Source of the DNA: Haloplanus salinarum
Lineage (GTDB): Archaea; Halobacteriota; Halobacteria; Halobacteriales; Haloferacaceae
Reading direction: 5' to 3'
Assembly: GCF_024498175.1 (NCBI RefSeq)
Contig: NZ_CP101823.1
Location: 124,001-188,000, forward strand
DNA: 64,000 nucleotides
Every line of letters starts with the position of its first letter. The stretch's first letter is position 1. This document shows positions 15,802 through 17,508 of the stretch, piece after piece. The position numbers were made by a program, and so were the translations under genes. The notes beneath the pieces were generated by a model. It was not told where the DNA came from, did not search any database, and saw only the letters and a program-made list of their open reading frames with translations.

Positions 15802-15917
15802 GACCGTCCCGTAGGCGGCTACGAAACTAAAGCGTCCCGACTCCGGGCGTGGGGACGGGACTCACCCCCGTCACGAGTCGTAACCTACTTCACTCACAGC
15901 ACAGTACCGTAATCCGT

Positions 15918-15990
15918 GTCCGGGTTGGGGTAGTGGTTATCCTTCAGCCTTGTGGAGGCTGAGACGCGGGTTCGATTCTCGCACCCGGAC
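15918..15990 (+). tRNA. tRNA-His (GTG anticodon)
   Basis: A cloverleaf fits: acceptor TCCGGGT (15919-15925) with ACCCGGA (15983-15989), anticodon arm CAGCC-TTGTGGA-GGCTG with anticodon GTG, and T arm GCGGG-TTCGATT-CTCGC. G15918 is the extra G(-1) pairing with C73 at 15990, the tRNA-His identity pair. CCA is not encoded. No intron is seen. Three partial copies of its 3' end follow. Confidence 0.95.
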
Positions 15991-16105
15991 TTTCTGTCTG
16001 CGAACGAACGTGAGCAGACGAACGTCCATCGTAAGAGAATCGAATCAGGGAACGGAGCGAGCGAACGCGAGCGGAGTGACCGTGGTTCGATTCTCGCACC
16101 CGGAC
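15991..16105 (+). repeat. tRNA-His 3'-end repeat unit 1 (115 bp)
   Basis: Starts TTTCTGTCTGCG right after the tRNA and ends with the same 22-nt T-arm/acceptor sequence as the tRNA (16084-16105). It also contains an inverted copy of the T-arm (GAGAATCGAA, about 16036-16045), so the unit can fold into a hairpin. It is nearly identical to unit 3, with one difference seen. Confidence 0.85.
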
Positions 16106-16199
16106 TTTCCGCGGAACGCAGTGACGAAGTAAGCCGGAAGGCGAGCACTCGGGGAGTGAAGCGAGCGGAACGACCGTGGTTCGATTCTCGCACCCGGAC
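16106..16199 (+). repeat. tRNA-His 3'-end repeat unit 2 (94 bp)
   Basis: A shorter, different spacer (TTTCCGCGGAACGC onward) followed by the same 22-nt tRNA 3' end at 16178-16199. It shares the GAAGCGAGCGGAACGACCGT-type lead-in, but not the inverted T-arm copy. Confidence 0.8.
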
Positions 16200-16314
16200 T
16201 TTCTGTCTGCGAACGAACGTGAGCAGACGAACGTCCGTCGTAAGAGAATCGAATCAGGGAACGGAGCGAGCGAACGCGAGCGGAGTGACCGTGGTTCGAT
16301 TCTCGCACCCGGAC
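16200..16314 (+). repeat. tRNA-His 3'-end repeat unit 3 (115 bp)
   Basis: A near-exact copy of unit 1, ending with the 22-nt tRNA 3' sequence at 16293-16314. The sequence after it (CTTCTCGCGACG) no longer matches the repeats, so the array ends here. Confidence 0.85.
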
Positions 16315-16515
16315 CTTCTCGCGACGAACGTGGGGAGCGGACGGTCACCCGAGACCCGAATCGTCCGCCAGTTTGCCCCGTGAACGAACCCGCACAGCGG
16401 CGGCGCCCGTCCGCCTTCGACGCACACACTAGTCGACTGGCCAACATCTTTATCCGCCGACAGTCGTATCGGTCGGGAGGCGTGGTACCACACGCCACGA
16501 TCGACGAAAACACCC
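16315..16515. other. Non-coding stretch between the tRNA repeat array and the exported-protein gene
   Basis: With the repeat array this makes about 525 bp without a gene. No ORF is supported. A TATA-like CATCTTTATCC lies at about 16445-16455. A short hairpin GGCGTG-GTACCA-CACGCC at 16479-16496 sits near the predicted transcription start of the gene at 16516, where it could be an operator or leader hairpin. Confidence 0.5.
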
Positions 16516-17508
16516 ATGTCAGAACACGATCCATCACCGATCCGACGACGCGTGACGCGGCGGGGTCTGCTCCGATCGGCGGTCGCCGGGGGTGTCGCGA
16601 CCGGCGGTCTCGCGACGTCGGTCACGGCACAGGGGAACGGGAACGGCGACGGTACTTCGAAGGGCTTCCCGCCGGACGGGATCACCGAGTACGGCGACGC
16701 GGTCGACCTCGGCGAGGGACGGGTGCGGCCGTTCACGACCGAGACGCCGTCGGGAGAGCCGAAGTACCACGGCGTGGAGTTCGATCGGTCGGCACTGGAG
16801 GGACTGCCGAGCGCGGCGGAACTGGACGAAGACGAGGGGACCTACGACGACAAGTACGGGCCGAACGGCGAGGCACTGGAGGTCCATCGGAAGCAGTCGC
16901 TGGAGTTTTTCGTCCCCTTCCCGGACGCGGCGGAGACGCCGTTTACCTTCCTCGGGCTCAACTGGAACCCGGACGGCCACCCGGGCGGCAAGGGGGCGTG
17001 GCTGGTTCCACACTTCGACGTCCACTTCCACATGCTCGATACGGGAACGGTCGACGCCATCGAGGGGCCAGCCCTCCCGCCGTACGACGACCCCGAGGCG
17101 ACGGGGGAGATTCCGGCCGAGCGGATCCCCGATGGCTACGTCCGTTCGCCGGAGCCGGTCGCCGACGAACGCTACATCACGGACATGGGCGAACACACGG
17201 CCCCGAGGGACGCGCCGGAACTCCCGGACGGCCCCGACGACGACGGGAACCCGGACCGGTTCACGGCCACGCTGATCCAGGGGTTCGTCGGCGTCGGCGC
17301 GAGCGACGCCGACCCGCGGCTGGCGTTCGTCGAACCGATGCTCACCCGCGAGTACCTGCGTGACCTCGACGGCACCGACGTGTTCGACGTGCCACAGCCG
17401 GAGGTCTACCCCCACGACGAGCGCCACCCGCGGACGTACGCCATCCGCGACGTCCCCTCGGCGGAGACGGTCTGTGTCGTGCTCCAGGAGTTCGAGCCCG
17501 TCGACTGA
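16516..17508 (+). CDS. Tat-exported protein of unknown function
   Basis: A 330-residue protein with a twin-arginine signal (VTRRGLLRSAVAGG, residues 14-27, cleavage near ATSVTA). The mature part has WLVPHFDVHFHMLD near residue 165, a His-rich motif that could bind metal. It resembles a family of periplasmic proteins I recall as DUF5602/TTHB210-like, but this is uncertain. Its TGA stop lies in the left edge of palindrome A. It is the first gene after the tRNA-His repeat array. Confidence 0.82.
   Translation: MSEHDPSPIRRRVTRRGLLRSAVAGGVATGGLATSVTAQGNGNGDGTSKGFPPDGITEYGDAVDLGEGRVRPFTTETPSGEPKYHGVEFDRSALEGLPSAAELDEDEGTYDDKYGPNGEALEVHRKQSLEFFVPFPDAAETPFTFLGLNWNPDGHPGGKGAWLVPHFDVHFHMLDTGTVDAIEGPALPPYDDPEATGEIPAERIPDGYVRSPEPVADERYITDMGEHTAPRDAPELPDGPDDDGNPDRFTATLIQGFVGVGASDADPRLAFVEPMLTREYLRDLDGTDVFDVPQPEVYPHDERHPRTYAIRDVPSAETVCVVLQEFEPVD

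Follow-up and report, generated by a model that had tools for sequence, protein, structure and literature searches.

The 3′ end of a tRNA-His gene in Haloplanus salinarum is followed by three tandem copies of itself, and the question raised by this locus is what kind of element such an array represents and how its copies came to stand there. The DNA analyzed is a window of 64,000 nucleotides, positions 124001-188000 of one 3.45-Mb contig. A preliminary description had suggested that the array may record repeated integration and excision. Our data indicate that the tRNA-His array is one case of a widespread kind of haloarchaeal element. With moderate confidence, we interpret it as a stack of dynamic, non-coding tRNA-tail cassettes, driven by recombination at the tRNA 3′ end, in which the folded sense strand matters.

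Results

Structure of the tRNA-His array

ARAGORN places the tRNA-His (GTG) gene at 15918-15991 on the plus strand, which is the strand of all features below, and Rfam RF00005 matches it with 53.1 bits. Its 22-nt 3′ end (15969-15990) was taken as the reference tail. Exact matches of this 22-mer, GGTTCGATTCTCGCACCCGGAC, start at 15969, 16084, 16178 and 16293, and no others occur on either strand of the window. The fourfold occurrence reported in the preliminary description was thus reproduced by exact matching; its single differing base at the left edge of 15969-15990 was misplaced, since all four 22-mers are identical and the difference lies one base before, with G in tRNA-His and T in all three copies.

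Unit 1 (15991-16105, 115 bp) consists of a linker hairpin, an inverted T-arm, a type A core and a tail copy. The linker hairpin (15995-16020), in which GTCTGC and GCAGAC flank GAACGAACGTGA, is predicted from the fold and from stem covariation across loci. The core hairpin (16035-16095) is a type A core, CAGGGA...GACCGTG, and the inverted T-arm GAGAATCGAATC is paired there with GGTTCGATTCTC of the exact 22-nt tail copy (16084-16105). Unit 2 (16106-16199, 94 bp) is degenerate: it keeps the junction GACCGTG and an exact 22-nt tail copy (16178-16199), and has neither an inverted T-arm nor a fold (z +1.0). Unit 3 (16200-16314, 115 bp) has a linker hairpin (16204-16229, from the fold), a core hairpin (16244-16304) and an exact 22-nt tail copy (16293-16314), and differs from unit 1 by a single base, A at 16028 vs G at 16237, which bears out the near identity noted earlier. 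Sense-strand folding gave z −3.65 for unit 1 and −3.25 for unit 3, and the opposite strand of unit 1 gave −1.26. An inverted T-arm and the ability to fold, previously ascribed to every unit, therefore hold for units 1 and 3 but not for unit 2. The array is thus made of a structured unit, a decayed unit and a third that repeats the first almost exactly and probably arose by duplication. In the minimum-energy fold of the whole tRNA-His transcript, the 5′ acceptor strand pairs with the last tail copy.

Open frames of 87-197 aa lie on both strands of the array region (15894-16537), and such frames across tRNA-tail arrays can be misannotated as proteins. Membership of a known RNA family was rejected: an Rfam search of the array region with E up to 10 matched only the tRNA, and RtT (RF00391) had no match in this genome or in the array region, control matches being confined to E. 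coli.

Own-tail copies behind other tRNA genes

When the array was used as a query against its own genome, similar segments were found about 60-160 nt behind other tRNAs. We then scanned the 600 nt behind each tRNA for a second occurrence of its last 21 nt, with ≤4 mismatches. Copies were present at 18/44 tRNAs, and foreign tails scored in the same genome gave 0/1,332, which excludes chance as their source. Three congeners had own-tail copies at 18/47, 13/44 and 20/44 tRNAs, so that the four Haloplanus genomes including our own reach 69/179, compared with 18/22,178 for foreign tails; roughly one third of the tRNA genes in the genus carry units. This full census of four congeners took one genome (G135) without its contig C3 and the 12 tRNA-like matches there, which crowd into about 2 kb of that smaller contig (160610-162673), as on a plasmid or virus. 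When the cut-off was relaxed, 31 of the 42 isoacceptor labels had a copy in at least one of the four genomes. These results rule out a unique accident at tRNA-His, as does the presence of units in other genomes.

Copies closely resemble the tails of their tRNAs: of 88 distinct ones, 49 show no mismatch to the tRNA and 70 no more than one. Mismatches become commoner toward the tail end, and in 52 of 84 copies the match to the tRNA begins only one base before GTTC.

Two loci of the same genome were unusual. One (L090, C1:2745519-2745618) was labeled Pyl(cta) by ARAGORN, and its tail equals that of an Arg(tct) tRNA in another haloarchaeon (L187); since Arg(tct) is otherwise missing from the genome, this is probably a mislabeled tRNA-Arg, judging from the tail. 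At the other (L113, C1:2711518), a type A core and tails of the form GGTTCGA.. mark repeats that have no tRNA within 2 kb, and a lost tRNA or island may have left them behind.

Anatomy and folding of the units

The DNA between tails has a median length of 94 nt (99 units), and a typical unit comprises 70-130 nt of non-coding DNA plus a tail of 21-22 nt, in the order linker hairpin, inverted T-arm, core hairpin and tail copy. An inverted T-loop is present in 79/99 units and a clear inverted arm is missing in 20/99. The stem of the inverted arm fits the local tRNA better than the stems of other tRNAs (0/2,000 shuffles); units are related by descent rather than independent, which makes these and the other shuffle probabilities optimistic. 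In 29 linker hairpins with a GAACG..GTGA loop, 80% of stem positions are paired, compared with 52% (maximum 65%) when arms are exchanged. The two pairs that lie inside GA/GA are formed in 53 of 57 different type A cores (shuffle maximum 40), although their letters vary (GT/AC, GC/GC, AC/GT, GG/CC and others); the invariant GA/GA itself is a requirement of the search expression.

Folding of 107 units against dinucleotide shuffles gave z −3.41 for the tRNA-sense strand and −1.97 for the antisense strand, with the sense value lower in 100/107; control trailers without copies (99) gave −1.22 and −1.09. RNA parameters were used on related units, and the P value of this strand comparison is only indicative. 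The tRNA-sense strand of the units is structured, with compensatory changes in the stems. Such folding of one strand is not what a symmetric DNA palindrome would give; it fits a transcript, or single-stranded DNA that folds. We also considered whether units are placed where a terminator is absent, and rejected this logic: runs of at least four T directly behind the tRNA are as frequent with units (19/69) as without (28/110).

Core types in 149 units were A (91), C (12), B (5), D (5), E (2) and other (34), the count of type A being inflated by units of named genomes, which were fetched through the type A junction. Two sister genomes have the same linker at Ser-tga but different cores. After splitting and duplicate removal, 54 of 99 units were left for comparison of cores and linkers; the nearest linker was at the same tRNA for 21 of them and the nearest core for 13, a modest modularity. 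The units are thus modular, with a linker hairpin and an exchangeable core hairpin. Homogenization of cores, or their spread between tRNAs of one genome, was unsupported: similarity within genomes did not exceed that between genomes, and 136/1,000 shuffles reached the observed difference.

Distribution in haloarchaea and beyond

A diagnostic junction made of the commonest core and the tail, GACCGTGGTTCRANTC, occurs in 306/391 genomes of the class Halobacteria, and its reversed-pattern control was found 0 times among the matches listed. In a draw from the phylum, it was present in 71/392 genomes, or 64/81 inside the class and 7/311 outside as counted from the rows; the reversed control had 5 matches outside the class. 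In named records, 57 of 67 junction matches (64 loci judged haloarchaeal) follow a tRNA within 500 nt and reproduce that tRNA's tail with ≤3 mismatches; these 57 represent 24 tRNA kinds, and 37 of their tails are identical. Another 16 loci were set aside as non-haloarchaeal by record title, and one of an unplaced euryarchaeote (L189; tRNA-Met 100 nt upstream, 6 mismatches) was placed among them.

A partial census was taken in five further genomes, with 30 loci each examined in three (30/142, 30/43 and 30/46 tRNA matches). Own-tail copies were found at 7/30 tRNAs in G012, a haloarchaeon that lacks the type A junction, at 15/30 in G064, a haloarchaeon of another family, and at 0/30 in three non-haloarchaeal genomes. 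Within the genomes searched, units are common in haloarchaea and specific to them. The preliminary description had made its account depend on matching units in relatives, and these proved abundant.

Viral contigs gave 61 junction matches, of which two passed a filter for CAGGGA, or TTYGAA followed by CAGGG, within 70 nt upstream of the junction (L420, and L470 with GC 0.42). The former was rejected as evidence of a viral att site because its contig contains a complete tRNA-Glu with its unit.

Tail cassettes are not described in the accessible parts of PMC9897764, PMC3119063 and PMC8371274, and tRNA-tail cassettes in haloarchaea are apparently undescribed in the literature, as far as a search including few of the subscription journals extends.

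Gain, loss and persistence among relatives

Compared at one and the same tRNA, sister species may have or lack units, have more or fewer of them, or have other core types. Twenty-five tRNA kinds found in all four congeners have copies in some of them and lack copies in others. Behind tRNA-His, one congener (G173) has two identical 113-bp units with another core, a second (G392) has one unit with a type B core, and decayed units stand elsewhere in the genus; the precise empty sites described below are at other tRNAs, since at tRNA-His the relatives carry other or decayed units. Identical units also stand in tandem, two at Glu-ctc and five in a row at tRNA-Met (G289).

Part of the array has seven matches in a congener (G334, C1:2224492-2225087), spaced about 90 bp apart, which form a long tandem array. 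A stretch of 25 kb in G289 contains three tRNA-His-like loci (C1:919823, 936568 and 944345); the 5′ half of the third is divergent, which suggests nested islands in tRNA-His.

At filled and empty sites, DNA past the last copy aligns to DNA just after the tRNA in the empty relative. The junction is precise (+0/+0) at Leu-gag, Leu-caa and Gly-ccc and within 6 nt at Pro and Phe, although Leu-caa is ambiguous, the tRNA-proximal side aligning too. Of 30 pairings with an alignment score of at least 50, 7 meet the tRNA end within 6 nt; the others start elsewhere, and several align the linker, that is, a decayed unit in the “empty” genome. These comparisons are unpolarized on the tree and count gain and precise loss together.

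Other units have persisted. The Leu-caa unit is nearly unchanged in four Halorubrum species, and the Ser-tga unit is recognizable across four genera of Natrialbaceae; survival across species and genera suits a host function equally well.

Integrases and islands

Integrase genes had been named as something to look for in the full genome; the genome has 10 matches to PF00589, none of them inside the window. Two of the ten are at tRNA-tail islands, and none of the genome's PF00589 matches was found linked to units. Tail copies of tRNA-Gly(tcc) lie about 19.5 kb downstream, across an island at C1:1823875-1843462 (L073/L114), and those of the intron-bearing tRNA-Met lie 6 kb downstream, across an island at C1:2769824-2776022 (L094/L115). 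Each island has an integrase match at one end (1842105-1842551 for Gly-tcc, 2775179-2775742 for Met). The Met island seems to have entered between the tRNA and a unit, since a similar unit stands directly behind the same tRNA in G135.

According to the accessible part of PMC3119063, haloarchaeal prophages duplicate 22-43 nt of tRNAs, and the 22-nt duplication of a Haloquadratum prophage matches the 21-22 nt core of our tail copies.

The proposal that the array records integration and excision can therefore be kept in part. Recurrent gain and loss are supported by the filled and empty sites and by copy numbers that differ from one sister species to the next. The copies of the tRNA-His array enclose no element with an integrase, and the units are a class-wide structured family rather than scars of one array.

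Discussion

In the proposed cassette mechanism, a new unit, whose last part repeats the segment of the tRNA from the T-loop to the 3′ end, would be added beside the tRNA; the tRNA would stay whole because the incoming unit brings the tail. Recombination between the tRNA 3′ end and an identical tail would add or remove units, with a tRNA-targeting tyrosine recombinase acting in trans as a candidate agent. Alternatively, homologous recombination between identical tails may cause unit loss and tandem growth. The folded sense strand could be the form recognized by the enzyme, or it could work as RNA. Several results weigh against the cassette reading: no recombinase is linked to the units and only 2/10 integrase matches are at tRNA-tail islands, few filled and empty alignments (7/30) meet the tRNA end within 6 nt, a fifth of the units (20/99) have no clear inverted arm and unit 2 is unfolded, cores are no more alike within a genome than between genomes, and the long-lived Leu-caa and Ser-tga units fit host function too.

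A host RNA element is a tentative alternative, possible but not probable in our judgment. Units would be co-transcribed as tRNA trailers, and 3′ cleavage would give structured small RNAs, or the tail copy would tune maturation, as has been proposed for E. coli rtT RNA. In the latter case the tail copy would be a rival of the native 3′ strand in pairing with the 5′ acceptor strand; the predicted tRNA-His fold, in which that strand pairs with the last copy, points the same way. Selective folding of the tRNA-sense strand, compensatory changes in the stems, the location of units solely downstream and in sense orientation, and the shared layout of the E. coli tyrT repeats, for which a small RNA is annotated, are all consistent with an RNA, possibly the processed RNA that the preliminary description had also suggested. 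However, presence, number and core type vary inside one genus, many tRNAs have no units at all, and the equal frequency of T-runs indicates that placement does not follow terminator absence. The readings considered here overlap, as a cassette may also be transcribed.

Rather unlikely, in our opinion, is neutral debris, in which integration and excision would duplicate tails, slippage would amplify them and gene conversion in polyploid cells would keep them identical to the tRNA. Debris is favored by the integrase-bearing islands between tRNA and tail copies at Gly-tcc and Met, by the identical tandem units at Glu-ctc and Met, by the increase of mismatches toward the tail end and, in the accessible part of PMC3119063, by the prophage duplications of 22-43 nt. 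Debris would not be expected to show structured cores that resemble one another at many tRNAs of the class, nor tRNA-matched inverted arms, one-strand folding or compensatory pairs. Fold-back template switching, by which a polymerase at the near-palindromic T-arm would copy the tail inverted and then direct, would yield units free of enzyme and function; it would explain why inverted and direct tail segments co-occur and fit the local tRNA, and the E. coli tyrT units have the same inverted and direct pair. It predicts neither the class-wide ends of the type A core nor folding on one strand, and we regard it as very improbable.

A broader conjecture, which we think improbable as well, is that tRNA genes are fixed landing sites for class-wide gene-less cassettes in an integron-like system, with the folded sense strand as substrate of a recombinase or copying enzyme and tyrT/rtT as its bacterial outpost. 

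Units of this kind would give haloarchaea, and perhaps E. coli tyrT, a common process at tRNA 3′ ends in which tRNA biology meets site-specific recombination. In practice, units may mislead annotation through false tRNA fragments and false ORFs. They may also offer viruses and plasmids additional sites of attachment, or form a trailer-RNA family.

Comparison with known systems

In the accessible parts of PMC3119063 and PMC8371274, att duplications of archaeal integrated elements resemble our units in targeting the tRNA 3′ end and in duplications of 22 nt, and in the tRNA-His array a duplicated tRNA 3′ end, present four times as the 22-mer, likewise flanks the elements. Unlike them, the cassettes have no integrase or gene between copies, measure about 70-130 nt and have conserved folded cores with an inverted T-arm. 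MITE-like elements are also short, non-coding and hairpin-rich, with precise empty sites; in the cassettes, however, it is always a tRNA tail that is duplicated at the flanks, and the inverted arm fits the tRNA that serves as target.

Integron attC arrays are made of units at a fixed primary site, with imperfect one-strand hairpins and variable tips. The likeness lies in the imperfect one-strand hairpins, a property of the haloarchaeal family that unit 2 of the tRNA-His array fails to show. Unlike integrons, the arrays have no linked integron integrase (no PF00589 match in the window), the units are too short for genes and the site is a tRNA.

The layout is shared by the rtT repeats of E. coli tyrT/tyrV (RF00391 RtT, rttR), which are 178-bp repeats directly behind tRNA-Tyr on the same plan. 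The tyrT transcript releases rtT RNA, which has been linked to the stringent response. The E. coli repeats are found at one tRNA locus, whereas haloarchaeal units are shorter and occur class-wide at dozens of tRNA kinds; in addition, the E. coli tail copies include the encoded CCA, and the tyrT units, unlike those of haloarchaea, fold no better than shuffles. At tyrV, the tRNA 3′ end closes each unit (+160, +338 and +516), and the inverted GGGGAAGGAT at +59, +237 and +415 closes a hairpin with the tail copy. Repeats that end in the tRNA 3′ end and contain an inverted tail segment are thus common to rtT and, except for unit 2, to the haloarchaeal units.
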